DNA from: Anaerolineae bacterium
Lineage (GTDB): Bacteria > Chloroflexota > Anaerolineae > Aggregatilineales > Phototrophicaceae
Assembly (NCBI GenBank): GCA_022841825.1
Contig: JALHQT010000004.1
Coordinates: 248,001-312,000 of the forward strand
Length of the DNA stretch: 64,000 nucleotides
Direction: 5' to 3'
The notes beneath the pieces were generated by a model, which did not search any database, was not told where the DNA came from, and saw nothing but the letters and a program-made list of their open reading frames with translations. Position 1 is the stretch's first letter. Each line of letters opens with the position of its first letter. A program made the translations under genes and the position numbers. Below are positions 19,401 to 33,112 of this stretch, piece by piece.

Positions 19401-19577
19401 TTGTACCAGAGCCAGAGGCGGCGGGGCGCTGTAAGCCTCCATAGTTCGTTTGCAATAAAGCAAGCGTGGATCACGAACCTTCTTGAAGAAGACGAGACTG
19501 CGCTGGAGGTAAGCAATGGTATCCAAGTCGATCTGAAGCCTTTTCAGATTGTGACGCTGAGGCTTGTTTTGAATTGA
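16497..19577 (+). CDS. GH38 alpha-mannosidase
   Basis: About 1026 residues, last gene of the operon. Catalytic features: AGHAHIDVAWLW (zinc-binding His-x-Asp), LPDAFGYTASLPQ (Asp nucleophile) and NQFHDILPGSS (zinc-binding His). The C-terminal half has the beta-sandwich domains typical of GH38. The frame opens at a GTG at 16482; ATG 16497 has a GGAG 4 bases upstream and is preferred. No signal peptide, so it acts on imported mannosides or on internal glycan. Bacterial members cleave alpha-1,2/1,3/1,6 mannose bonds; exact linkage cannot be told from sequence. Confidence 0.88.
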   Translation: MGYHERRFTLQKIARRLALVQGLVYRRRQPLLPFLLDGQPVQPNTYWGEQYAHFSLRTTIQVPVGFEAPLALHLPIGSAGAFSHPEALVIIDDSPLAAVDRHHQEIALPIAYADGELHQLELRGWVGAIDGEPGEPGKRLFMRECAVVQIDPATRELVAWSRIALQAVEHLDENSLDRAHLTQALDDAYQLLDLHEPFGDAFYNSVQPALVLLQLRCAIGHPLDADIIAAGHAHIDVAWLWTLAETRQKAVRTFYNVLHLMEQFPDFHFSQSQPQLYEYVREEDPQLFARIQQRIREGRWEPLGGTWIEPDCNITGAESLARQFLYGRKFFAEHFGAGAESPVCWLPDAFGYTASLPQLIKLAGLDYFFSIKLEQSQYNKLPHDSFWWQGIDGSRVLAHFSTSPDRPWEGNKPDLRNTATYNADLNAFSALGSWIKLHEKARQHVMLMSYGYGDGGGGPTREMNENTLVLRSFPGLPRVTQGKVIDFFRRLEDESGNKLPTWNGELYFELHRGTYTTQSRNKRANRKAEFLQHDAEFLAVAAAQLDPSFEYPHQTLKRAWELVCLNQFHDILPGSSIQPVYEDSLAQYVEATQFAEDVRAAALDVLRKHFGGDVLLVNPTGFAQCTLAFWAGRLPEGMQFEGDVYTQETGDGTLLMADAAPYSFQPLHMIAGTGNEVPFAAHAEALALENRLLRVELNVAGDITRIYDKEAKRELLPEGALANHWQAFEDRPLEWDAWDIDIFYEDKRYFADPAASIRIVEQGPLRATIEIERRILNSQYIQRISLSCDSHQIDFATEIDWREKHILLKAAFPVNLLAPVATYEIQWGQVDRPTHRNTSWDWARFEVAAQKWAALREDDYTVALLNDCKYGYDIHDNVLRLSLLRAPTFPDPDADQGVHQFAYSLRAESVTDLQNVIRAGYALNDPVFAVDGERQAVLHDAVTLFSVEGGAVIETVKAAEDRRGVIMRLYQSQRRRGAVSLHSSFAIKQAWITNLLEEDETALEVSNGIQVDLKPFQIVTLRLVLN

Positions 19578-19845
19578 GTTGCACCTACTTGATCAACATG
19601 AATTTTCGTTATTGCAACGATGAGTAGCAACTGTTGATGCAAAAGCGTGGAACCGGCCAGCTCGGTCGAGCGCAGCCGCTCAACGGAGCCGGGGACGATG
19701 CCGAAGGGGGAGCCAGTCCAGCATCCCGCAGGGAAAGCAGTAGTTCGGTCGTCCCGCCCGCAGGGTGGGATGACCGTACTGCTGCTGGTGCTGGATAGGG
19801 GGTGACCTCGCATCGTAAGATCGCCGAGTCGGCGGCTGCACGCAG
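19578..19845. other. Non-coding junction between the glycan operon and the replicon module
   Basis: 268 bases with no convincing gene. It holds a long imperfect hairpin (listed separately) and the 15-mer CGGTCGAGCGCAGCC (19663-19677), whose last 14 bases recur near 33340. No T-run typical of an intrinsic terminator follows the mannosidase stop. I looked for a direct repeat shared with the other end of the module (about 25.1-25.25 kb) and did not find one. Confidence 0.5.
19736..19783. repeat. Long imperfect hairpin at the edge of the replicon module
   Basis: AGCAGTA..CGGTCGTCCCGCCC pairs with GGGTGGGATGACCGTACTGCT across a 3-base loop, with a 2-base bulge and two mismatches. It could terminate transcription from both sides (the mannosidase and the HU-like gene converge here), or it could mark the boundary of the inserted module. 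Confidence 0.5.
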
Positions 19846-20139
19846 CTAAACTTCCTTGCACCGCCGCCTGAACCGCGCGTACAGTCGCATCTTCGTCCGC
19901 AAACGTGACTTCACCTGCCTTCTCTCGCGCCTGCCATCGGGCATGATGGCACTCACATAACCCTTCCCCTCCTCTCGCATCACTTGTATCTTGCCAATGT
20001 AGGGAATATCGACCCATTCACCCTTAGCGATCTCCTCCGCGAGCGCCTCCAGATAGCGTTCAACTGCCTCGCGCACCAGCGCTTTGGTCAGACTCCGACG
20101 CTGCCGAGCGACATGGGCGACTCGTTGGGTGTGGTTCAC
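19846..20139 (-). CDS. Small basic HU/IHF-like DNA-binding protein
   Basis: 97 residues, strongly basic at both ends. The centre (TKALVREAVERYLEALAEEI, then GEWVDIPYIGKIQV) has the two-helix plus beta-arm layout of HU/IHF-type proteins, where G-x-V-x-I/L-x-x-x-G-x-I leads into the DNA-binding arm. Start: GTG at 20139 with AGGAG 7 bases upstream; the open frame is longer but its N-terminal part covers the hexamer repeats and looks non-coding. Located beside the repeats and downstream of the replication gene, it may bend the origin DNA (inference). Confidence 0.6.
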   Translation of the reverse strand: MNHTQRVAHVARQRRSLTKALVREAVERYLEALAEEIAKGEWVDIPYIGKIQVMREEGKGYVSAIMPDGRRERRQVKSRLRTKMRLYARFRRRCKEV

Positions 20140-20155
20140 AGTTGTTCTCCTGATT

Positions 20156-20235
20156 TGTCGGTAGTCAACTGACACTGCCGACAACCGACAATACCGACAG
20201 TCTGTCGTCGGTTGTCGGTGTGTCGGTTTTGTCGG
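20156..20235. repeat. Cluster of TGTCGG/CCGACA hexamers: putative replication origin or operator
   Basis: Seven perfect copies in 80 bases: TGTCGG at 20156, 20213, 20221 and 20230; CCGACA at 20178, 20185 and 20194. One further near-copy (TGTCGT) starts at 20203. The CCGACA block and the TGTCGG block face each other, giving overall dyad symmetry around 20200. Spacing between neighbours is 7-9 bases. It lies directly upstream of the HU-like gene and downstream of the primase-like gene, as iterons do near plasmid replication genes. Confidence 0.6.
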
Positions 20236-20239
20236 TGCA

Positions 20240-20541
20240 TTACGCCTGATCGCCGATATGCTCGACGGCGATGAACCATTCGGCACGCTCCATCCGCCGT
20301 TCTTCAATCAAGCCCGCGCGCACCAGGTCGCTCGCCAACCCACGCGCTTGCTTCGCCGAAAAGTTCAGATTGCGGTACAGGTCGCGCAAGCCAACGCCCG
20401 CCGCCCTGTCTGGCGGATGGCATTTAGCAGTCGATCCTGCTGACGCTTCTCCTGCACCGCCTCGCCGCTGCGGTCGAGCTGCTCCAGCAGACGATGCGCC
20501 GATTGTCGCCAGCCTTCGGCGATGGCTTGTCCCGCACTTCA
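20240..20541 (-). pseudogene. Detached C-terminal end of the replication protein
   Basis: After the TGA at 20541-20539 the same frame continues with coding-like sequence (SAGQAIAEGWRQSAHRLLEQ and so on, to about 20410). A shift of one base in a G/C-rich run near 20395-20410 then leads to VGLRDLYRNLNFSAKQARGL, then a winged-helix-like ending in a stop at 20242-20240. So one nonsense codon and one frameshift separate the last ~100 residues from the main protein. Sequencing error, decay or recoding could each explain it. Confidence 0.6.
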
Positions 20542-22503
20542 GTGTTGAGTGTTCACGGTCGGTGTATCAGCGTTGGTGTCCAGCCAGTCCAACGCGGCGA
20601 ACAGCGACGCCAGCTTGAACGCCTGGACGTGCATCCGCCCATAGACGCCCTTCAGCCGCTCGTCCAGTTCGGTGTCGCCACTCGGCGCGCAGCGCTTACG
20701 CAGCCAGTCGCCATAAGCTTGACACTCCGCCCAGCACTGCACCTCCAGCCGGAGTGCGCCCGGCGCTGCCAGCCCGAAATCGGTCGGCTCTGGCTGCGGC
20801 AGCCGGTCGTGCAAACGGCGCAGATCGTCAATAAGCGGTTGTGGCACAGCGCGATAGCTGGTGGATGCCGGACGTTCAACGTAGTCCGGTTCAGGCGTGA
20901 GCAGCGCGAAGCGGATGAGCAGCCCGTTGTCCCAATCGCCCCCGCTGACTGCACACGATAGGCTGGCGGGCGTGGTCACACCGAGGATCGAGAGCGCCGC
21001 ATTCTGGACGATGTTCAGCCCGGTCTGGGTATCTTTGTCCACATAATCGGGACAGTCGTAGAGTTCCATCAACAGGTCTTTCATGCCGACCATGTAGTCC
21101 TTGCGGTTGATGGCTCCGAACAGTCCGGCGACCTCGTCCTTGAGGAGTCCGCGTTGGGCGGCGAACGGCTGCGCTTTCGTCAGCCGTTCCTGCTGCTCGC
21201 GGGCGAGCTTGTCGTAGTTGCCCGGCATCCGCCCCGCCAGCGCCTCCTGGAAGCGCTCCGGCGATCCAGGCGTCGGCATGAGCATGTGCGGGATCGCCGC
21301 CCGCGCCACGCCTTCTGCCAGCTTGTAGGCGGTCGATTTGCGGTAGAAGGTCGTCCCGGCGATCAGCATCAGGTACAGGTTCGGATAGAGCTTCACGCCC
21401 CAGGGCGCTTCGCCATACAGCCTGCGCCCGACGGCGGTTGCCAGCAGCCACAGCCCCGCCGCCTGATGAAAGACCATCGGCGTCTGGTTGCCCGTCGCGC
21501 CCGCCCATTCCAGATATTGCGCCAGCCAGTTGGGCAGCTTGTAGTCCCCTGCGACTGTGGGCGGCTCGTCGCTTGGAGGCGCTGGCTGACGAATTGCAGT
21601 GCGTGTTGCGACGACAAGCGGCTGCACAGGCTTCTCGAACAGACCACCAATGCTCGCCACATCGATACTCGAGGTCGCGGCGATGTCCTTCGCCAGCAGC
21701 GTGCCGCAGACGTAGCAATGCCCGTAACCACTGATCGCGTTGAACCCGAATGACGGATTGCGGTCGCTATTGCGATGGCGTTCCGGGTGCAGGCAGCGCC
21801 CGTGCAGCCACTCGCCATGCGGCTTGAAACCCTGACTGAGCAGGTTATCCCGGATGGCATCGAGCAAACGCGGATTGAGGTTGCCTTGCCCTGCCGGTGC
21901 TGAAACTCGCGGCGGATTCCACTCTGGCACAGCCTCACGAGGTTTGAACGACTCGATCCATGCCGCCAGTTCATCCAGATGCGCAACTCGCAGGATGTCG
22001 AGCGGCTGCTCGACCCGGTAAGTGTTGTTCGTGATGGGATGCACGCTCGGCGGCGCGACCACCTGCCGCCCTTCCGCGCACAGTTCGAGGTTGCCAATCG
22101 GCGTCCCCATCGCCTTGAGACTGGATGGCAGGCGGTTTGTGTAAAAGTAGACATGCTGTCCGACCCCTCCGCCCGTCGCGACGGTGAAGGTTTCGGTCAG
22201 GTGCGGGAATGTCGCGGCGAAGGCGGGATACCCGGCTGCCCCATCCAGATCGAGGACGACGAGATTGCCGGAGACCGCGCCGCAGATCAGCCCGACGTTC
22301 TGGAGCAGCCCGGCGCTGCTCCAACCGCGGATGACCTCAGCGGTGGCGGCGGTCTTCTGCAACGCTGCCCAACTCGTCAGCGCCGGACGCTTTCCGTTGA
22401 GCGGCAGGATGCTCAAGCCGAGCGCGGCATAGGTGAGCGCCGCTTCGATGGTGGTGGCGGATTGTGCCGCCCGGACAATGGGCGGTTGGTGTTCGGTATT
22501 CAT
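20539..22503 (-). CDS. PrimPol-type primase with DUF3987 helicase-like domain
   Basis: 654-residue replication protein. Residues about 20-170 are a bifunctional primase/polymerase domain (AALTYAALGLSILPLNGKRP, VVLDLDG, then HVYFY). About 230-285 carry a zinc-binding cluster, C-x4-H in GRCLHPERHR followed by C-x2-C (HCYVCGT). About 340 onward is a DUF3987 P-loop region whose Walker A is degenerate (IAGTTFYRKSTAYK), followed by helical sequence. The start is at ATG 22503; the frame opens upstream to 22575 without support. The protein ends early compared with its own downstream coding remnant. Such proteins start replication of plasmids, phages and integrated elements. Confidence 0.75.
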   Translation of the reverse strand: MNTEHQPPIVRAAQSATTIEAALTYAALGLSILPLNGKRPALTSWAALQKTAATAEVIRGWSSAGLLQNVGLICGAVSGNLVVLDLDGAAGYPAFAATFPHLTETFTVATGGGVGQHVYFYTNRLPSSLKAMGTPIGNLELCAEGRQVVAPPSVHPITNNTYRVEQPLDILRVAHLDELAAWIESFKPREAVPEWNPPRVSAPAGQGNLNPRLLDAIRDNLLSQGFKPHGEWLHGRCLHPERHRNSDRNPSFGFNAISGYGHCYVCGTLLAKDIAATSSIDVASIGGLFEKPVQPLVVATRTAIRQPAPPSDEPPTVAGDYKLPNWLAQYLEWAGATGNQTPMVFHQAAGLWLLATAVGRRLYGEAPWGVKLYPNLYLMLIAGTTFYRKSTAYKLAEGVARAAIPHMLMPTPGSPERFQEALAGRMPGNYDKLAREQQERLTKAQPFAAQRGLLKDEVAGLFGAINRKDYMVGMKDLLMELYDCPDYVDKDTQTGLNIVQNAALSILGVTTPASLSCAVSGGDWDNGLLIRFALLTPEPDYVERPASTSYRAVPQPLIDDLRRLHDRLPQPEPTDFGLAAPGALRLEVQCWAECQAYGDWLRKRCAPSGDTELDERLKGVYGRMHVQAFKLASLFAALDWLDTNADTPTVNTQH

Positions 22504-22612
22504 GGTTGTGCTTTCTTTTGTGTCGTACAAAGTGATGGACAGCACAGCCGGACTGATGTATCCTCGATTTACCACAATCTCTGGACACTTCGTCCGACCG
22601 TGCCGCCAGCCC

Positions 22613-23017
22613 TTAAGCTGGCGGTTTCGTTTTGGACTGAGCAGCGTGTTCGATCAACGTCTGGATGCCGTCCTCAGCGGCGATGCCAGAGCGGATCATG
22701 TCTTCGAGCAGGTCACCCAGCTCATACGGCTTCTTGTTCACGCGCTCGTAGAACAAGTGCAGCGTTTGCAGGCTGATCCCCAGCGTGATGACCAGCAGGC
22801 GTTCAAGAGCATCGACGCGCCGCCCGAACATCTTGGTGAAATGCTTGCGGCTGCCGATCAGGTCTTCCTGTTCGTCGAGCCAGGCGCGCAGCGCGGCGCG
22901 CACGACCTCGGCTTTCGGCTCGTCACGCTGCCTGGCGACTTGCTCCAGACAGTCGTCCATCGGTTCGGTAATGTGGACGGTCAGGCGTCGGGTATAGTTG
23001 GAACGGTTGTCAGACAT
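22613..23017 (-). CDS. Ribbon-helix-helix DNA-binding protein
   Basis: 134 residues. RRLTVHITEPMDDCLEQVAR followed by AEVVRAALRAWLDEQEDL is a classic ribbon-helix-helix domain (beta strand, helix, turn, helix). The rest is helical and could be a partner-binding region. The start at 23017 follows GAGGAAGT closely; an in-frame ATG at 23041 is the alternative. It lies between the relaxase-like gene and the replication gene, with a hairpin-rich gap upstream. RHH proteins in this position often nick-site-bind as MobC/TraY-like accessory factors or repress the replication operon (inference). Confidence 0.7.
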   Translation of the reverse strand: MSDNRSNYTRRLTVHITEPMDDCLEQVARQRDEPKAEVVRAALRAWLDEQEDLIGSRKHFTKMFGRRVDALERLLVITLGISLQTLHLFYERVNKKPYELGDLLEDMIRSGIAAEDGIQTLIEHAAQSKTKPPA

Positions 23018-23342
23018 ACTTCCTCGGGTATTTGGTTTCATCGGACGAAATCGGGACGATGGCGGATGAGAGGGGCGCGTTCAGGCATGACGCGCCATGC
23101 TTCTCAGCGACGGCGGACCCCTGGGACGACGGCGCTGGCGGCATCCCGTGAGGGATGGCGCATCAAGCCCCTCCGGCGCATGAGGAGCGAGTTTATTAAA
23201 CTCGCCACCCCAACTGCGTAGTGGGTGGGGTGTCCCGGCGTCTACAACGCCTGCCGGACGACGACTTCGTCGCGCCGGGACACCCGCGAGCGGCTTCGCG
23301 CCGCTCGCATCTGCGACGCGCAGCGCTCGTTCGGTCACGGGG
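23018..23342. other. Hairpin-rich non-coding gap, candidate transfer origin
   Basis: 325 bases holding several strong inverted repeats. There is a perfect 19-mer GCGAGTTTA-T-TAAACTCGC (23187-23205). There is a perfect 13-bp repeat GGGTGTCCCGGCG (23228-23240) with its complement at 23273-23285. GCGAGCGGC-TTCGC-GCCGCTCGC lies near 23286-23308, and CATCCC-GTGA-GGGATG lies near 23140-23155. An open frame crosses it on the minus strand but is composed of these repeats. Flanked by relaxase-like and RHH genes, it fits an oriT or similar protein-binding site. Confidence 0.5.
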
Positions 23343-24011
23343 CTAAATGTCGAGATCAACATGATGCCCTCCAGCAATGCTTGGCTCCGCTTCCGGCTGC
23401 TCTACTTCGCGTGCCAGACGCCACTCGTTGCCGATGGTGCGGTCCAGGATCAGCTCAAACTCCTGTCGGGCGATGCGATGCAGGTTGTCCTCGCGGTTCA
23501 ATCCACCGCGATCCGTGCAGACCTGCCCGCGATGCGTCATGTGTGACTCGCGCTCGCCCAGGCCGTTCTCAATCGTCCCAGCGACGAAGACATGCGTGTG
23601 CAGGTTCTGCAAGCCATAGTCGTCATCGGTATCCCGGTCGTGCAGGACATAGCTGTAATCCGGGATGTTCAGTCCGCGCGCGGCGTGCCAGCCCTCAATC
23701 GTCCGCTCGGTGACTTCGCGCACAACTTCAGCGCGCAGCGTTTCAGGGATCAGCGCCATCAGGTCGGGTGCCGGGGCGATGACCAGGTGATGCGCCAGCA
23801 CATACGGTCCCGCCTGTTCGCCTGCCGCCGCGTACACCGCTTTCCAGCCTGCACCCAAGCCGCAGTCCGTCCAGCGGTCGGACAAATCGACCGGGCGGTG
23901 ATCGGGACTCTCGCGGTACGAAACGTACTGGAGCAGCTTGCGCAGCGAGCGGTAGACGCCTTTGGTTGGCTTCTGGTAGTGCCAGTTGGGGATGATGGTC
24001 GGCTTGCTCAT
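23343..24011 (-). CDS. Relaxase-like (HUH) mobilisation protein
   Basis: 222 residues. Near the N-terminus LLQYVSYRE has Tyr29 and Tyr32, possible DNA-linking tyrosines. HHLVIAP (about 74-80) resembles relaxase motif II. HDRD (124-127) followed by NLHTHVFVAGT (His138, His140) resembles the three-His metal motif III, H-x-D...H-x-H. The protein is shorter than typical relaxases and has no helicase or primase tail. It overlaps the zinc-ribbon gene by 4 bases. If it is a relaxase it would nick one strand at the transfer origin. A rolling-circle replication protein is the main alternative. Confidence 0.55.
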   Translation of the reverse strand: MSKPTIIPNWHYQKPTKGVYRSLRKLLQYVSYRESPDHRPVDLSDRWTDCGLGAGWKAVYAAAGEQAGPYVLAHHLVIAPAPDLMALIPETLRAEVVREVTERTIEGWHAARGLNIPDYSYVLHDRDTDDDYGLQNLHTHVFVAGTIENGLGERESHMTHRGQVCTDRGGLNREDNLHRIARQEFELILDRTIGNEWRLAREVEQPEAEPSIAGGHHVDLDI

Positions 24012-24214
24012 GCTTCAGTTCCGTCTTGATGTAACAGAGTGTTTGACACGAAATGCGTATGCAGCGATTTCCAGCGTGTCCACTTTGCCCGCTGCTTACA
24101 GCGGTTGCTGCAATACAATCGCTTGCGCCCAGCGTAGTAGCCCGATACCGGCAGCGGTTCGCCACACACCAGACACCGACCTACTGCCTGTCTGACACGG
24201 CTGTGTGATGACAA
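24008..24214 (-). CDS. Small zinc-ribbon protein
   Basis: 68 residues with four cysteines, Cys14-x2-Cys17 and Cys35-x3-Cys39, in GRCLVCGEPLP and RLYCSNRCKQRAKW. The second half of the motif resembles zinc fingers of small DNA-binding accessory proteins in mobile elements. It is basic. The start lies inside the end of the membrane-protein gene (34-base overlap) and the end overlaps the relaxase-like gene by ATGA. Function unknown; DNA or relaxase binding is a guess. Confidence 0.55.
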   Translation of the reverse strand: MSSHSRVRQAVGRCLVCGEPLPVSGYYAGRKRLYCSNRCKQRAKWTRWKSLHTHFVSNTLLHQDGTEA

Positions 24215-25086
24215 TTGCCGTTGGGCGACAGCGCTAAAGGGCGCGGTTCGCTGCTGACCTCCGACGCAACCTCACTCATTTCGCCGGACAATGCAGGCTG
24301 CTCGTACCACTGGTCAGCTTGCAGCTCGCGGTAGACTAGCGCCCGCCAGTCGGCGGTTGTCAGGATTTCCAGCGCCTCGCGCTTGCGGCTGTTGGACTTG
24401 CGCAGGGCATCGCGCAGGGCGTTGGCGTAGAACTGCATCCAGCGCGGATGGTTCTCCGGGTTGAGTGCCGCGCGCTGCCAGCTATTGATCGCATCCTGAT
24501 AAGCGCGCTCGTTGGCATGACGCTGCTCAATGGCGACCAGCATCTGTTCCTTGAGGACGTAAGCAGTGCTGAGAACCATCAGGGGTGGGGCGATGGCTTC
24601 CAGCCAGGCAAACGGGCTGTGCATATGACCGGGCAGGGCGACCTGCACATTGCCGACAAGCGCGATAGCAGTAGCGATCCCCATGCTGATGTAGAGCAGA
24701 CGGCGCGCGCTCCGTGTTGTCCCGAGCGTCGCCAGCGCCAGCGAGAACACCACCTGTCCGATCTCGGCGGTCAGCACGGTAGCGATTCCAACTGCGACCG
24801 CTGCCCGCGCGTCCGGCACGGCTGCGCCGAAGGTCTCCGAGCCGATGACGTAGAGCCGGATCGCGGATGGCGTAAACGCTGCTAACAGCAGCAAAATGCA
24901 CAGCGCGGTGATGAGCTTGGTCACACGGGGTGGGAAGCGCAGCGCAGCATACTGGTTGAACAGTTCCCGCTGCGGGCGCTCGCCGACGGCGCGATTGACC
25001 GCCTCCTGTGCGGCGGCGTAGGCGAGCTGGCGTTCTTCCTGGGTGAGCGGTCTAATTTGCGAAAGTGGATTGGTTTGGTCGTTCAA
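24181..25086 (-). CDS. Membrane protein, first gene of the replicon module
   Basis: 301 residues. Four hydrophobic segments lie between about residues 56 and 190 (TKLITALCILLLLAAF, AVGIATVLTAEIGQVVFSLA, LLYISMGIATAIALVG, PPLMVLSTAYVLKEQ). A charged helical tail of about 100 residues follows, probably cytoplasmic. The layout resembles DUF2637/SpdB-like membrane proteins on actinobacterial plasmids, which help spread plasmids between cells. I see no motif that proves this. It overlaps the zinc-ribbon gene, so all six genes of the module may be one operon. Confidence 0.5.
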   Translation of the reverse strand: MNDQTNPLSQIRPLTQEERQLAYAAAQEAVNRAVGERPQRELFNQYAALRFPPRVTKLITALCILLLLAAFTPSAIRLYVIGSETFGAAVPDARAAVAVGIATVLTAEIGQVVFSLALATLGTTRSARRLLYISMGIATAIALVGNVQVALPGHMHSPFAWLEAIAPPLMVLSTAYVLKEQMLVAIEQRHANERAYQDAINSWQRAALNPENHPRWMQFYANALRDALRKSNSRKREALEILTTADWRALVYRELQADQWYEQPALSGEMSEVASEVSSEPRPLALSPNGNCHHTAVSDRQ

Positions 25087-25096
25087 TGCCTCGTCT

Positions 25097-25130
25097 CCAG
25101 GTTCTTGAGGGGCTTCGCCCTTGAACCTGG
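25097..25130. repeat. Hairpin upstream of the replicon module operon
   Basis: CCAGGTTC pairs perfectly with GAACCTGG, with an inner AGGG/CCCT stem. It lies 11 bases upstream of the first gene of the module, so it could be a 5'-UTR structure or an operator. Confidence 0.4.
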
Positions 25131-25212
25131 TCAGGCACTACAATGGTCGGCATCAGCGTCAGCCATATGCCTGAGGGCGAGAAGATCGCCGTGCGCGGCT
25201 GGTAAGGTAGAG

Positions 25213-25243
25213 AATCTGGGAAAGAGCCTTTCTTTCCCAGATT
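25213..25243. terminator. Perfect 13-bp hairpin after kdpE
   Basis: AATCTGGGAAAGA pairs with TCTTTCCCAGATT across a 5-base loop, 24 bases beyond the kdpE stop. The CGTTTTG tract follows only on the plus strand, so on the kdp side it is a stem without a clear U-run. It still separates the kdp operon from the replicon module. Confidence 0.6.
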
Positions 25244-25266
25244 CGTTTTGACTTGCAATGGGTCAT

Positions 25267-25959
25267 CTAGGTGATTTCCACCCTCAATCGATACCCAACC
25301 CCTGGTTCCGTAATCAACCGCTTTGGCAGCGCGGGGTTGTCCTCCAGCTTTTGACGAAGCTGCGCAAAGTAGACGCGCAGGTAATGGGTCTCGTTCACGT
25401 ATTCCGGACCCCACACGGCACGCAAAATCTGCTGATGCGTGAGCACCTTGCCCGCGTGCTGGATCATCAGTCGCAGCAGCGCATACTCCGTCGGGGTCAG
25501 CTTAACCCCCTCGCCGCGTAGTGTCACCGTGCGCCGTGAGAAATCAACCTCCAGCTCATCCACGCGAAACGTCGAGTCCTGCGCCTCCGGGCGTGCATGG
25601 CGCAGCGCCACCCGGATACGCGCCAGCAGCTCATCGGTGCTGAAGGGCTTGGTCAGATAATCGTCCGCCCCGGCATCGAGTGCCGCAACCTTGCCCTGGT
25701 CGTCATCGCGCACCGACAGGATGATGACGGGTGTCGCCGTCCATTCGCGCAGGCGGCGCAGCACCTCCAGCCCGTCCAGATCCGGCAGCCCCAGATCAAG
25801 AATAATGATATCTGGGCGATGTTGGGCAGCGCGTGTGATGCCTTCGCCGCCCGTCAGCGCCTCCAGGACGTGATAGCCGCTCGCTTCCAGGCTGATGCGC
25901 AGGAAGCGGCGAATCTGCGCTTCGTCGTCGATGACCAGGACATGAACGCCTTCGCTCAC
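25267..25959 (-). CDS. kdpE: KdpE, response regulator of potassium transport
   Basis: 230-residue OmpR/PhoB-type response regulator. The receiver has HVLVIDDEAQIRR, a phospho-acceptor Asp in IIILDLGLPD (about residue 55) and the Lys of LTKPF. The winged helix (about 130-228) contains LTPTEYALLRLM and ends in GVGYRLR. It would be phosphorylated by KdpD when potassium is limiting and then activate the kdpFABC promoter. It overlaps kdpD by 4 bases and is the last gene of the operon. Confidence 0.93.
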   Translation of the reverse strand: MSEGVHVLVIDDEAQIRRFLRISLEASGYHVLEALTGGEGITRAAQHRPDIIILDLGLPDLDGLEVLRRLREWTATPVIILSVRDDDQGKVAALDAGADDYLTKPFSTDELLARIRVALRHARPEAQDSTFRVDELEVDFSRRTVTLRGEGVKLTPTEYALLRLMIQHAGKVLTHQQILRAVWGPEYVNETHYLRVYFAQLRQKLEDNPALPKRLITEPGVGYRLRVEIT

Positions 25960-28637
25960 AAGGCAGCCTCCTTGACAGGGGGCGGTGCCGCGCCCATCGG
26001 CAGCCGGATGACGAAGCTGGCTCCGTTCGGAACGCGGTTTTCGGCGGTCAGCTTGCCGCCGTGCGCTTCGACCAAGCCACGACTGATCGACAAGCCCAAC
26101 CCGGTGCCACCGGTGGGGGTGCCGGGAATCCGATGAAACTTCTCAAAGATGCGCTCAAGTTCGGCGTTGGGAATTCCTGGTCCATCATCCATAACACGGA
26201 TCAACAGATCGCCATCGGCGACTTCTGCCCTCAAATCAACCCGTGTTGTTGGCGGGGTATAGTTCCGAATGTTATCAAGCAGGTTGACGATCACCTGCTC
26301 GACGAGGACAAAATCCATCTGCACCAGCGGCAGGTCGGGCGGGCAGTCGATCTGAAGGGGGCGCTCGCCCAGTGCGCCAACCATGCGCTGCACGGCTGCG
26401 CCGAACAGATCGCAGACATCGCACCACTCACGCTTGAGCGTCAGACGCCCACTTTCCAGCCGCGACATATCGAGCAGGTTTTCGACCAGGCGATTCAAGC
26501 GTTCGGCGGCAATTTGGATGTCCTGCACCAGTGCCGTTCGGTTGGTGCTGTCGCTCGCGGTCGCCGGGTTGAGCAAGCCGCTCGCCGCACCCCCAATCGT
26601 GGCGATGGGGGTGCGCAGCTCATGCGAGATCGAATTGAGCAGCGCAGTGTACAGCCGCTCGCTCTCGCGCAGCATCGCCGCCTGCTCCGCCGCCTGATCG
26701 AGCAGCTCGCGCTCGATCACGAGCGCAACCTGATTGGTGAAGGTCTCCAGCAGCGCTTCCTGGTCAAAGGTCAGTCGCTCGTCCTCGCGCAGGCGCAGCC
26801 CCAGAACCCCGACGCTGCCCGCCGACGTGCGCAGCGGAATGTAGCGCCCGGCGGCGGACGGCAGCGTATCGGTGTGCCGCCCGGCGGAACGCTCGTTCTC
26901 GAATGCCCACTGCGCTGCGCCCAGTTCGCGCTCATCCATCGCCAGGCTGCTGCACGGGTGGGGCGTCTGGTTCAGCGCCCCATCCTGTGCCAACAGGATC
27001 GCGACATCGCCATTGAAGATGCGCCCAATCTGGGCGACAGCACTGCGCAGCACATCGTCCATGTCAACTGCTGATGCAATTTCATGCGCCAGTGTGTACA
27101 ACGCCATCGTACGTTCAGCGTTTGCACGCGCCTGCCGTTCCTGGGTGCGAATGCGCGCGGTCAGGTTGCCCGCGAACAGCGCAATCGCAAAGTACAGCAC
27201 CAGCAGCAGCACATCCTGCGCCTGCGATATCTGAAAGGTGAAACGCGGCTCAATAAACAGGAAATTCCAGGCGAGCGCGCTCACACCCGCCGCGAGGATG
27301 GCTGGACCACGCCCCAGATAAACCGCTACGATGAGCACGACCAGCAAGTCCAGTAGCCCAAACAATTGGTAACTTGCCAGATCGACCAGAAACAGTTCGA
27401 ATACGGTTAACGCAATCATCGCGAGCAGCGCAATGCCGTACTGACTCAGGTTGGAGGTTTGGCGCGTATCCAGTTTGAACAGCGGTGTACTGGTGGGTGC
27501 AGGATTGCCCGTCACCACGAAGACATCAATATTGCCGCTGGCACGCACGACCTTGTCGACCGGCGACCCGCCACGTAGGGCGTCGCGCAGGGGCGAATGG
27601 ACGGGCTTGCCCATCACAACCTGCGCAACGTTACGCTGGCGGGCAATATTCAGAAGCGTTCCGGGGATGTCATCGCCCGCTGTCGTGACCACTTCCGCAC
27701 CCAGGTCGCGCGCCAGCTCGAGATTGCGGGTCAGGGTGGCGCGCTGGTCTGCGGTCAGCGCGCGTGAGGTTTCGACGTAAACCGCCAGCCAGTCCGCCTC
27801 CAGGTTATACGCCATGCGCCGCGTCCAGCGGATGAGCTGCTCAGAGAATGGGCTGGGACCGACGGCGACCAAAAGCCGCTCGCCGGACTTCCAGGGACCA
27901 GCGATGCGCTTGATCTGCATGTAATTCTGAAGCTGGTGATCGACCCGCTCGGCAGTCAGGCGCAGCGCCATCTCGCGCAGCGCCGTCAGGTTGCCCACGC
28001 GAAAGAAGTTGTTCGCCGCCGTCTCGACCTTGTCGGGCACGTAGACCTTGCCCTCTGCCAAGCGCCTGCGCAGGTCTTCTGGAGAGAGGTCGATCAGCTC
28101 GATCTCGTCTGCCAGGTCGATGATCGAGTCCGGCACGGTCTCATGGACGGTGATGCCTGTGATCTGCTTCACCGTGTCGGCGCGGCTTTCGAAATGCTGC
28201 ACGTTGATGGTCGTGTAGACGTTGATTCCGGCGTCGAGCAGTTCTATGACATCCTGATAGCGTTTGGGGTGGCGAGTACCAGGGACATTGGTGTGCGCCA
28301 GCTCATCCACCAGCACGAGCAGCGGGCGACGCGCCAGGATCGCGTCGAGATCCATCTCCTCCATGGTCGTGCCGCGATACTCGACCTTCTGCCGCGGGAT
28401 GATCTCCAGCCCTTCCAGCAGCGCATCGGTCTCCGCGCGCTTGTGCGTTTCGACATAACCCACGACGACATCGACGCCTTCGGATTTGCGAGCATGTGCC
28501 GCGTCGAGCATGGCGTAGGTCTTGCCAACACCTGCCGCCATGCCGAAGAAGACCTTGAGTTTTCCGCGCCCCTGCCGCTGTTCCTGATCCTGAATCGCGG
28601 CGAGCAACGCATCGGGATCAGGGCGATTTTCACTCAT
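25956..28637 (-). CDS. kdpD: KdpD, potassium/turgor sensor histidine kinase
   Basis: 893-residue sensor kinase. The N-terminal KdpD domain has the P-loop GMAAGVGKTYAMLDA (about residue 35). A UspA-like domain lies about 250-370, followed by four membrane helices near 395-495 and a GAF domain about 520-650. The kinase core has the phospho-His in ISHELRTPIATIGGA and an ATP-binding part with DDGPGIP and GTGLGLSI. GAGG 8 bases before the ATG supports the start. It follows kdpC after a 66-base gap that contains a palindromic repeat. Confidence 0.93.
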   Translation of the reverse strand: MSENRPDPDALLAAIQDQEQRQGRGKLKVFFGMAAGVGKTYAMLDAAHARKSEGVDVVVGYVETHKRAETDALLEGLEIIPRQKVEYRGTTMEEMDLDAILARRPLLVLVDELAHTNVPGTRHPKRYQDVIELLDAGINVYTTINVQHFESRADTVKQITGITVHETVPDSIIDLADEIELIDLSPEDLRRRLAEGKVYVPDKVETAANNFFRVGNLTALREMALRLTAERVDHQLQNYMQIKRIAGPWKSGERLLVAVGPSPFSEQLIRWTRRMAYNLEADWLAVYVETSRALTADQRATLTRNLELARDLGAEVVTTAGDDIPGTLLNIARQRNVAQVVMGKPVHSPLRDALRGGSPVDKVVRASGNIDVFVVTGNPAPTSTPLFKLDTRQTSNLSQYGIALLAMIALTVFELFLVDLASYQLFGLLDLLVVLIVAVYLGRGPAILAAGVSALAWNFLFIEPRFTFQISQAQDVLLLVLYFAIALFAGNLTARIRTQERQARANAERTMALYTLAHEIASAVDMDDVLRSAVAQIGRIFNGDVAILLAQDGALNQTPHPCSSLAMDERELGAAQWAFENERSAGRHTDTLPSAAGRYIPLRTSAGSVGVLGLRLREDERLTFDQEALLETFTNQVALVIERELLDQAAEQAAMLRESERLYTALLNSISHELRTPIATIGGAASGLLNPATASDSTNRTALVQDIQIAAERLNRLVENLLDMSRLESGRLTLKREWCDVCDLFGAAVQRMVGALGERPLQIDCPPDLPLVQMDFVLVEQVIVNLLDNIRNYTPPTTRVDLRAEVADGDLLIRVMDDGPGIPNAELERIFEKFHRIPGTPTGGTGLGLSISRGLVEAHGGKLTAENRVPNGASFVIRLPMGAAPPPVKEAAL

Positions 28638-28662
28638 GGCATTACCTCATTCTCAGCGTTCC

Positions 28663-28691
28663 GTTGGGGCGACCCATGGAGTCGCCCCAAC
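28663..28691. repeat. GTTGGGGC-type palindromic repeat, copy 1
   Basis: Arms GTTGGGGCGAC and GTCGCCCCAAC pair perfectly across 7 bases (CCATGGA). It sits between kdpC and kdpD. It is related to the repeats at 40098-40125 and 58317-58346. Confidence 0.6.
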
Positions 28692-28703
28692 ATCCATATC
28701 ATT

Positions 28704-29285
28704 TTACCCGTTCGCCGCCTCGTCCAACGCCAGGTTGAGCAGGAGGACATTGACGCGCGGCTGACCGAGGAAAACAAACTGTGGCGCTTCGATGGCAGCA
28801 TCGACCAGTGCATTAACCTGTTCGACCGCCAGCCCGCGCGCCGCCGCGACGCGCTCCACCTGCAAGCGCGCTGCTTCCGGCGAGATGTGAGGATCTAGCC
28901 CGCTGCCGGATGCGAAGAGCATCTCGGTGGGCACAACAGCATCTTCCGGCAGCGCGTTCGCCTCGCGGAAGGCGGCGGCACGCTCTGCGACCGTTTGTGC
29001 CAGCGTCGCACTGGTCGGTCCCAGGTTGCTGCCGCTGGAGGGCAGCGGGCTGTAGCCTATAGCAGACGGGCGCGACCAGAAGTAGCTTGGGTCGCCATTC
29101 ATATTCTGCCCGATGAGCGAGGAGCCGACGACTACGCCGTCGCGCGTCTCCAGGCTGCCGTTTGCCTGTGCCGGAAAGACCGCCTGCGCCGCTAATGTGA
29201 CGACCAGTGGATAGATTACGCCCGTGAGGATCGTCAGGACGACGAGCATTCGCAGAGCGATGAAGATCGATTTCATGAGGTTCAA
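28704..29285 (-). CDS. kdpC: KdpC, potassium-transporting ATPase chaperone-like subunit
   Basis: 193 residues. One N-terminal membrane helix (FIALRMLVVLTILTGVIYPL) is followed by the typical motifs FPAQANGSL, GSSLIGQ and SYFWSRPSA. The C-terminus includes SGLDPHISPEAA, the family signature. It stabilises KdpB in the KdpFABC complex and may aid ATP binding. Length is normal. It follows kdpB after 23 bases. Confidence 0.93.
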   Translation of the reverse strand: MNLMKSIFIALRMLVVLTILTGVIYPLVVTLAAQAVFPAQANGSLETRDGVVVGSSLIGQNMNGDPSYFWSRPSAIGYSPLPSSGSNLGPTSATLAQTVAERAAAFREANALPEDAVVPTEMLFASGSGLDPHISPEAARLQVERVAAARGLAVEQVNALVDAAIEAPQFVFLGQPRVNVLLLNLALDEAANG

Positions 29286-29308
29286 CCTTTACAGGACTGC
29301 GCACACTG

Positions 29309-31411
<2,103 letters not shown>

Positions 31412-31420
31412 GATTCACCT

Positions 31421-33112
31421 CTAGAAGCTACGCCCGGCAGCCATGAGCAGATGTTCGACAATGGGACCCAGCGTAAGCGCCGGGAAAAACGTCAGTGCGC
31501 CGACGATCAGGATGACGGCAATCAGCAGACCAGCGAAGACGGCACCATCGGTCGGGAAGGTGCCGGGGGAAGGCGGCGCGGTCTTCTTGCCAACCATGCT
31601 GCCCGCAATCGCCAGCACCGGCACGATGACGCCGAAGCGCCCGATCCACATGGCGATGCCGAGTAACACGTTGTAGAACGGTGTATTGGCGTTCAGCCCG
31701 GCAAACGCGCTTCCGTTGTTATTCGATGCGGACGCGAAGGCGTAGAGAATTTCGCTGAAGCCGTGCGGTCCCGCGTTGGCGCGGTTGCTCAGACCCGCCT
31801 CTGTGACGGAGGCGAACGCGGTCATCAGCAGAACAGCGGCGCTCGGCAGCAGAATAGCGACGATTGCCATCTGGATTTCGCGCGCTTCGATCTTTTTGCC
31901 CAGGTATTCCGGCGTGCGCCCGACCATCAGACCGGCGATGAAGACCGTCAGGATGACGAAGATCAGCATGCCGTACAAGCCCGCGCCCACGCCGCCGAAG
32001 ATGATCTCTCCCAGCAGCATGTTGAGCATGGCGATGCCGCCCGCCAGCGGCGTGAAGCTGCTGTGCATGGCGTTGACCGAACCGTTCGAGGCGGCAGTGG
32101 TCGCCGCGCCCCACAGGATGCTGTTGGTGATGCCAAAGCGAACTTCCTTGCCTTCCATCACGCCTGCAATACCGAACATGGGATTGGCGCTGTATTCAGA
32201 GACCAGCATGAGCGACAGCCCGGCAGCAAGCAGGGTGAGCATCGCACCAAAGATCACCCACCCCTGACGCTGCGAGCCGATCATGCGCCCATAGGTGTTG
32301 GTGAGCGCGGCGGCGATCAGCAGCAGTGAGAGCATTTGCAGGAAGTTGCTCAGGGGTGTCGGATTCTCGAAGGGGTGTGCGCTGTTGACGTTGAAGAAGC
32401 CGCCGCCGTTGGAACCCAACTGCTTAATGGCGATCTGCGAGGCGGCGGGTCCCTGCGGCAAGACCTGGGTCTCGCCCATGAGCGTCGTCGCCTCGGTATA
32501 AGCGTTGAAGTTCTGGACGACACCCTGCGACACGAGCAATAGCGCCAGGATCAGCGACACCGGCAGCAGCACATACAACGTCGCTCGCACCAGATCGACC
32601 CAGAAATTGCCGAGGGTATGCGCGGTTCGGCGCGCCAGCCCGCGCGTGAGTGCGATGACGACGGCGATGCCCGTCGCTGCGCTGACGAAGTTCTGCACCG
32701 CCAGCCCCAGCATCTGCGTCGCGTAGCTCATGGTCGTTTCGCCCGCGTAGGACTGCCAGTTGGTGTTGGTCATGAAGCTGGTCGCGGTATTGAATGCCAG
32801 CGCTGGTTCGACGCTCGCCAAGCCCGCCGGGTTCAGCGGCAGCGCCCCCTGCGCCAACTGGAGCAGAAAGACGACCAGGAAGCCGAGGACATTGAAGGCG
32901 ATCAGCGCGATGGCATATCCGTGCCAATCCTGCTCCTCCGTTGCATTTACACCAGACAGGCGGTAGATGATGCCTTCTACAGGGCGCAGGACGGGCGTGA
33001 GCAGCGTTCGTTCGCCCGCAAAGACATGCGCCATGAAACCGCCGAGCAGCGGCGTGAGGACGATGAGCACGCCGAAGAAGATGACGATTTGCAGCAGTTC
33101 CAACGGAGTCAT
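31421..33112 (-). CDS. kdpA: KdpA, potassium-translocating subunit
   Basis: 563 residues, about ten membrane helices. Selectivity-filter regions are recognisable: [35 protein letters not shown] and [14 protein letters not shown]. These are the family's conserved pore loops, which form a single potassium-specific channel. It begins 3 bases after the stop of kdpF and overlaps nothing. Length normal. Confidence 0.95.

Follow-up and report, generated by a model that had tools for sequence, protein, structure and literature searches.

The DNA analysed here (the window) is a stretch of 64,000 nucleotides from an Anaerolineae bacterium of the phylum Chloroflexota (GenBank assembly GCA_022841825.1, contig JALHQT010000004.1, positions 248,001–312,000). 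In this window, six minus-strand open reading frames (ORFs) are located between a GH38 mannosidase gene, which ends at 19577, and kdpE (25267–25959). We propose that these ORFs are probably a decayed representative of a family of integrative mobilisable elements (IMEs) that is so far almost confined to Chloroflexota, with a conserved double hairpin as the origin of transfer (oriT) and with movement by the machinery of another element. The ORFs encode, in order along the minus strand, a membrane protein (MEM), a small zinc-ribbon protein (ZN), a minimal relaxase (REL), a ribbon-helix-helix (RHH) protein, a PrimPol–DUF3987 primase/helicase and an HU-like protein. All six had been recognised at this place in a first-pass annotation of the sequence, which described a mobilisable replicon with overlapping gene ends. 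Overlaps were found between MEM and ZN (34 bp) and between ZN and REL (4 bp), but the genes for RHH, PrimPol and HU stand separate. The annotated bounds (19846–25086) were too narrow, since homology places the whole element at about 19647–25205, within outer limits (19578 and 25266) that adjoin the flanking stop codons. The left bound is the point at which DNA similarity to the loci L181 and L175 stops, and the right bound, at approximately 25205, is where similarity to L174, L172 and L166 stops (L numbers denote compared loci; designations such as G000:C5 denote genome and contig, G000 being the window's own genome).

REL is a 222-aa protein (23343–24011, minus strand) with a predicted structure (predicted local distance difference test score, 86.5). 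In a structure search, ranks 1–29 were occupied by relaxases (TraI, TrwC, MobM, MobA and NES) with Z-scores of 9.9–12.6. The residues that are invariant across 22 aligned members include Tyr29, Arg33, Arg46, Trp47, His124, His138 and His140, and the order of a Tyr followed by His...HxH agrees with the 3H motif of relaxases as defined in the available portion of PMC5313138. The predicted fold, the N-terminal Tyr and the three-His motif thus argue that REL belongs to the HUH relaxase superfamily. Among the 22 members, the best relaxase-type Pfam E-values were 0.001 (TrwC), 0.033 (Relaxase) and 0.084 (MobA_MobL), and a profile search of PDB sequences again gave TrwC as the best match (E, 0.2). 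The window REL scored above no curated cut-off for the known MOB families as represented in Pfam and NCBIfam; it is too divergent for standard databases to name.

When 84,980 bacterial and archaeal genomes were scanned with the relaxase alignment, 80 of 132 relatives were kept, corresponding to 78 loci. The record titles of 77 of these name Chloroflexi, Anaerolineae or their subgroups and one names Bacteroidetes, which bears out the first-pass suggestion of a Chloroflexota family. The complete order MEM–ZN–REL–RHH–PrimPol–HU was found in seven of the 78 loci (L166, L167, L168, L171, L174, L175 and L181); contig ends cut the order before HU in L170, L172 and L176, and variants of it were found in L177, L178 and L179. 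PrimPol is interrupted by inserted genes in L174, and is interrupted in L178 as well. HU homologues lie behind PrimPol in L179 and in all seven loci with the complete order, and an RHH relative accompanies each of the 22 RELs of the first set. The flanking genes vary among L166, L167, L171, L174, L175, L181 and the window, so that the same gene order does recur in other genomes with different neighbours, one of the two settings in which the first-pass annotation had proposed to look for it. As for the other, plasmid searches found no free plasmid carrying the six-gene set; PrimPol matched four plasmids, with its N-terminal part only, and MEM had no match among viral contigs. The distribution is patchy, with MEM in 5 and the relaxase in 13 of 298 genomes of a class-wide sample.

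The gap between the genes for REL and RHH (23041–23343, minus strand; 80–81% DNA identity with L166 and L167) is rich in hairpins, as had been annotated. When treated as single-stranded DNA (ssDNA), it folds better than all of 100 shuffled sequences (z, −4.56). The starting clue was a 32-bp similarity that this gap shares with another relaxase locus of the contig, at a distance of about 143 kb. From this, a conserved double-hairpin site was delimited at 23162–23208 (minus strand; 60.1 bits with model R1, of which the window copy is a part). The first hairpin, H1, has a 6-bp stem and an A-rich loop, and the second, H2, has a 2–4-bp stem and a loop that starts with TCA and mostly ends with CGCC. 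Model R1 spans 46 positions, and its 14 sequences match it by construction. In these 14 sequences, with columns fixed, pairing is complete (112 of 112 cells), and both sides have changed in five of the eight pairs. Sliding the partner lowers pairing to 25–47%. In 500 shuffles, four of five covariation measures were never equalled, and the fifth (further pair types) was equalled in 61. Among 31 distinct sites, 303 of 310 stem pairs are Watson–Crick, four are G–T and three are mismatched, in a set from which 11 of 62 rows had been dropped for loop misfit and in which H1 was placed by best pairing, a choice that favours pairing. The stems vary while the loops stay near constant, the pattern that recognition of a single-stranded hairpin by a protein should leave. 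The core, TGCG/CC, recalls the nic site of RSF1010, TAAGTGCG/CCCT, behind an inverted repeat (PMC4814116, part of the text); the window core is TCATGCGCC. Because the core varies within the family, the position of the nick is a guess. We predict that the hairpin site is the oriT.

Occurrence of the site was surveyed in 61 genomes of the order. Strong sites (E ≤ 1.4e-9; next match, 2.2e-6) were found at 40 places in 18 genomes, with stricter filters, so that weak copies may be missed, and with some places at contig ends that are possibly one copy counted twice (G083 C3/C212; G344 C123/C250). REL lies within 1.4 kb of 23 of the 40 strong sites, on the same strand in all 23 cases. For the 19 genomes included in both surveys, a strong site was present in 9 of 11 relaxase-positive and in none of 8 relaxase-negative genomes (p = 0.0007). 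A wider search detected a strong site nearby at 43 of 76 loci (44 matches), invariably on the relaxase strand; it covered the 78 loci apart from L176 and L177, and some of the 76 are short contigs. Some of the kept loci are the same records as the G-numbered genomes (for example, L177 is L047, L178 is L130 and L179 is L134), and the site searches over the two sets are therefore not independent.

For the remaining 17 strong sites, no REL is present within 2.5 kb, and in 14 cases the neighbourhood includes a defence, UvrD-type or serine-recombinase gene. In nine, a gene with a specific defence-model match is present within approximately 6 kb: type I restriction (G201 C38 and C55), HKD+Snf2 (G201 C48), HmaA (G201 C26), HmaB (G252:C1), type III restriction (G344:C250), Cas3e (G146:C117), Cas10/Cmr (G361:C434) and Cas10d/Csm3 (G363:C108). 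A UvrD-type helicase, with a broad match only, is beside the site in G083:C3, and a serine recombinase is within 3 kb in G000:C5, G055:C15, G363:C46 and G252:C4. Neither defence nor serine-recombinase genes are near the sites in G337:C536, G337:C585 and G344:C123. The defence proteins were chosen by eye, so that this is not a blind enrichment: 19 of 20 had PADLOC hits (the miss was in L157), six of the 20 came from loci that also hold REL, and the matches in L126 were broad helicase ones. As a control, 10 hand-chosen proteins from kdpE neighbourhoods gave three PADLOC hits, to kinase and Lon-like models.

Genes for a type IV coupling protein (T4CP; VirD4/TraG-type) were detected by Pfam directly behind RHH-REL in L205 and on contig C1 of the window's own genome, where a candidate ATPase below the cut-off was also seen. 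T4CP genes are present in 7 of 13 genomes searched, the window's genome among them. A T4CP lies within 4 kb of the REL end at 38 of 54 loci without a downstream PrimPol, versus none of 11 loci with one (p = 1.5e-5). This count used the 65 loci with at least 3 kb of downstream sequence (13 of 78 were dropped) and scored PrimPol as present where a same-strand DUF3987 relative lay no more than 6 kb downstream; with a DUF3987 relative elsewhere, L182, L185, L210 and L243 were counted as lacking PrimPol. The T4CP is on the same strand in 26 of the 38 loci and on the opposite strand in 12. From this split, the window's type looks mobilisable and its sisters closer to conjugative. Serine recombinases were identified by Pfam in L167, L171, L180, L131, L133 and L121, and by tblastn in L140, L053 and L057; in L167 and L171 the gene is upstream of MEM. 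The 3′ end of the recombinase gene is within about 120 bp of, or overlaps, the 3′ end of a tRNA gene in L131, L133, L140, L180, L053 and L057, and the element of L047 is near a tRNA-Asp gene. A short ORF of L047 that had been read by eye as a recombinase N-terminus was discarded, as it had no Pfam hit. There is no tRNA anywhere in the window, and hence no tRNA target for the window copy.

PrimPol–DUF3987 (20539–22503, minus strand; start inferred by homology) matches PF09250 (2.5e-22) and PF13148 (9.8e-13). Behind it, the hexamer cluster noted in the first pass is an inverted array of seven TGTCGG copies within 20156–20235, a candidate replication origin; the whole window holds 41 copies against 40.7 expected. 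Hexamer arrays in both orientations were present behind PrimPol in all 12 regions compared, where the commonest hexamer occurs in 4–9 copies against a mean maximum of 2.2–2.9 after resampling, the observed number being reached by 0–18 of 500 resamplings. The array unit differs by element (CCGACA in some, GTGACA or CTGACA in others), and units within one array, as read by eye, appear to change together, as would be expected if each origin is recognised by its own replication protein. In the window, tblastn with a 768-aa homologue revealed that PrimPol is truncated by a TGA at 20539 and then frameshifted, leaving a C-terminal remnant past the stop, partly in another frame (20258–20538, minus strand), whereas ORFs of 745–768 aa are present in nine homologues that show no break. 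The two lesions may come from assembly error. Searches of the whole window with five serine recombinases, one tyrosine recombinase and one T4CP found no relative of any, in line with the absence of an integrase noted earlier. With the stop, the frameshift and no recombinase relative in the window, this copy is decayed. Since it has no recombinase of its own for integration or excision, we file it as a derivative rather than an intact IME. The description as a mobilisable replicon therefore holds for the relaxase fold, the RHH protein, the iteron-like array and the oriT-like site, but not for an intact copy. Because the relaxase, the RHH protein (22613–23017, minus strand; PF01402 (RHH_1), 2.7e-6; start inferred; a candidate relaxosome accessory factor) and the hairpin site look intact, this copy could still be mobilised in trans, provided that its DNA was excised or linked to another element.

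Several observations weigh against an integrative mobilisable element with the hairpin as oriT. All genomes are metagenome-assembled or drafts. REL had no match among plasmid, phage or IMG/VR records, and the lack of a recombinase in the window counts here too. No exact flanking direct repeats of at least 12 bp were found in the stretches compared. The comparison of the junctions with an empty site, also proposed in the first pass, yielded none: GH38 homologues in 15 genomes of the genus did not reveal an empty site, and kdpE was absent from the flanks (~1.5 kb) of the 11 loci retrieved besides the window's own. The T4CP split is not absolute, as L182 combines a T4CP with an upstream DUF3987 relative. 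A strong site is absent nearby at 8 of the 22 first relaxase loci, among them L052, which is cut just upstream, and L051, which has a strong site about 10.6 kb away. The count of 43 in 76 loci in the wider search points the same way. At 7 of the 43 site-bearing loci, the site is 2.4–7.4 kb from RHH.

The double hairpin might be not a DNA site but a cis-acting RNA in the leader of an autoregulated RHH-REL operon. In most loci that have the site, it is upstream of RHH on the same strand, and covariation cannot separate RNA from ssDNA. RNA stems are expected to hold more G–T pairs than the 4 in 310 seen here. Nothing in the window reached the gathering threshold in Rfam, the two matches in the gap being far below it, and most of the 17 strong sites that lack a nearby REL are near recombinase or defence genes, so that we regard an RNA element as unlikely. 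It appears about equally doubtful that REL is a rolling-circle replication initiator, with the hairpin as its replication origin and PrimPol as an accessory. With the H2 loop, the candidate nick would fall within a stem-loop; this is the arrangement of Rep proteins, whose origins lie in the loop, whereas nic sites of relaxases are 3′ of a hairpin (PMC4814116, in the portion available). The sole Pfam match of the window REL, below the cut-off, is Rep_OBD (E, 0.21). On the other hand, the invariant Tyr is N-terminal as in relaxases (the circular permutation between the two groups is described in the same part of PMC4814116), and the best Rep domain in the structure search, a circularly permuted viral construct, appeared only at rank 30 (Z, 6.7), behind the relaxases. 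Moreover, T4CP genes are linked to the sister loci, and a separate origin-like array lies behind PrimPol in every region compared. A chance cluster of ordinary chromosomal genes, or vertical inheritance linked to kdp, is hardly credible. Although kdpE adjoins the element in both the window and L130, the two agree on the kdpE side and differ in the first genes; other neighbours were found in L166, L167, L171, L174, L175 and L181, the distribution of MEM is patchy, and the genes are not of ordinary chromosomal families.

We also considered that the hairpin is in addition a single-stranded acceptor, and that the relaxase family moves defence genes as cassettes, as an integron-like HUH system. Two arrangements favour this. 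In G201 (C38, C48 and C55; L122, L123 and L124), three different restriction/helicase gene sets are each followed by a site-bearing sequence, exactly identical over at least 302 bp, and in L187, L205 and L200 restriction-modification or Argonaute blocks lie between the site and RHH-REL. We nevertheless judge such cassette movement to be very unlikely. In L205 (3649–6957) and L200 (3779–7105), the intervening block consists of a long Argonaute and a Cas4-like nuclease, in the same order in two genomes.

For the preferred interpretation, a degraded mobilisable element, we propose the following mechanism. The RHH protein and the relaxase would bind H1–H2, and the relaxase would nick in or beside the H2 loop and become attached to the strand. 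The relaxase-bound strand would be taken to the coupling protein of another element, for example that of the copy on contig C1 of this genome, and led through a channel that is likewise supplied from outside. After transfer, the strand would be made double in the recipient, and complete members would integrate by their serine recombinase. PrimPol–DUF3987 may start replication at the hexamer array and keep an excised form replicating, and HU may help to shape the DNA. Site-bearing elements without a relaxase would be carried in trans.

By function, the element is IME-like and hence of a known kind. With canonical IMEs, as described in the available part of PMC5704250, it shares a relaxase, a candidate accessory protein, a candidate oriT, a replication-type module and a serine recombinase (here in relatives), as well as the lack of a T4CP in the window and in all 11 same-order relatives (mating-pore genes were not searched for). 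It differs in a relaxase below the Pfam and NCBIfam cut-offs and in PrimPol–DUF3987 with an iteron-like array. The text of that review contains no word beginning with "Chloroflex". The REL-less strong sites, four of the 17 near a serine recombinase, are similar to the relaxase-less mobile genomic islands with a borrowed oriT covered in the same part of PMC5704250, but here the shared site is a double hairpin, short and covarying, that is often located close to defence genes, and trans-mobilisation is predicted. MobA of RSF1010/R1162 (MOBQ) resembles REL in fold (2ns6; Z, 10.6) with 12% sequence identity over the aligned part. The MOBQ oriT (PMC4814116, part of the text) has an inverted repeat followed by the TGCG/CC core, a short resemblance only, whereas here the core varies within the family and a second stem encloses the candidate nick. 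The MOBL relaxases of Firmicutes (PMC5313138, in part) are likewise a one-phylum family missed by standard searches; they are from another phylum, the likeness is one of description, and transfer in the present family is predicted. A PrimPol fused to DUF3987 on an integrated element has been described in the accessible part of PMC5862659, but the window PrimPol is here placed in no named archaeo-eukaryotic primase family. What looks new is the relaxase family, the double hairpin that joins an upstream repeat to a stem round the candidate nick, and its relaxase-less recurrence near defence genes. Titles and the openings of abstracts among the matches listed in the open-access literature held nothing on relaxases or IMEs of Chloroflexota, which is weak evidence of absence.

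The remaining features of the locus are as follows. MEM (24181–25086, minus strand) is a multi-helix protein with homologues in relatives, in G000:C14 and in L063; its predicted structure (predicted template modelling score, 0.45) was too low in confidence for a structure search. ZN (24008–24214, minus strand) contains CxxC...CxxxC, and its homologues sit between MEM and REL. REL, ZN and MEM are below every curated cut-off in Pfam and NCBIfam, and their best matches in PHROGs, which has no cut-offs, were 0.035, 8.3e-5 (HNH endonuclease family) and 0.14, respectively. The HU/IHF-like DNA-binding protein (19846–20139, minus strand; start placed by homologues) matches PF00216 (Bac_DNA_binding; 4.8e-5). 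A plus-strand micro-ORF ending in MPEGEKIAVRGW (25134–25205) is divergent from MEM, and similar peptides occur in L174, L172 and L166, and less clearly in L130. This family of approximately 20–35 aa, with an RGW ending, is kept in several elements; its interpretation as a truncated host gene beside kdpE was dropped, because relatives with other neighbours carry it. The left end contains a sequence with inverted repeats (19707–19800) that is 75% identical over 94–95 bp to G000:C5:445485–445578. On that contig (445485–445817; L121), the window-like left end is about 200 bp from a hairpin site at 445772, and the neighbours include ParA/ParB-type genes and a serine recombinase gene that is divided between two frames. 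GC content is 61–64% over the element and the kdp operon and 51–59% leftward, with the step at the left end of the element (window 20000–33000). The kdpE stop codon is within about 65 bp of the element end in the window (25205–25267) and in L130 (6861–6927), and in L163 (3000–4902) the array end, interrupted by a transposase-like gene, is turned towards kdpE; this adjacency may reflect a preferred site, shared ancestry or chance. Actin-like (ParM-type) genes near RHH-REL in L006, L050, L064, L130, L135, L136, L139 and L164 suggest plasmid-like partition. The 25-kb contig G000:C14 (L014, L015) has the appearance of a further mobile element: it carries relatives of MEM and DUF3987 and genes for an FtsK-type ATPase and two DNA methylases, and a serine recombinase is encoded at its end. 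G252:C8 (L063) is probably circular, since its sequence recurs with a period of 14,135 bp; it encodes a relative of MEM, a tyrosine recombinase and a zinc-ribbon-like protein.

If our interpretation is correct, a relaxase family and a transfer site would become available for a phylum with little described conjugation biology. The site would join two arrangements that are kept separate in the available part of PMC4814116, the upstream repeat of relaxases and the stem round the nick of Rep proteins. The 46-position model would allow the detection of mobile DNA, often with defence genes, also in places that lack a nearby relaxase, and the trans-mobilisation of defence genes would become directly testable.

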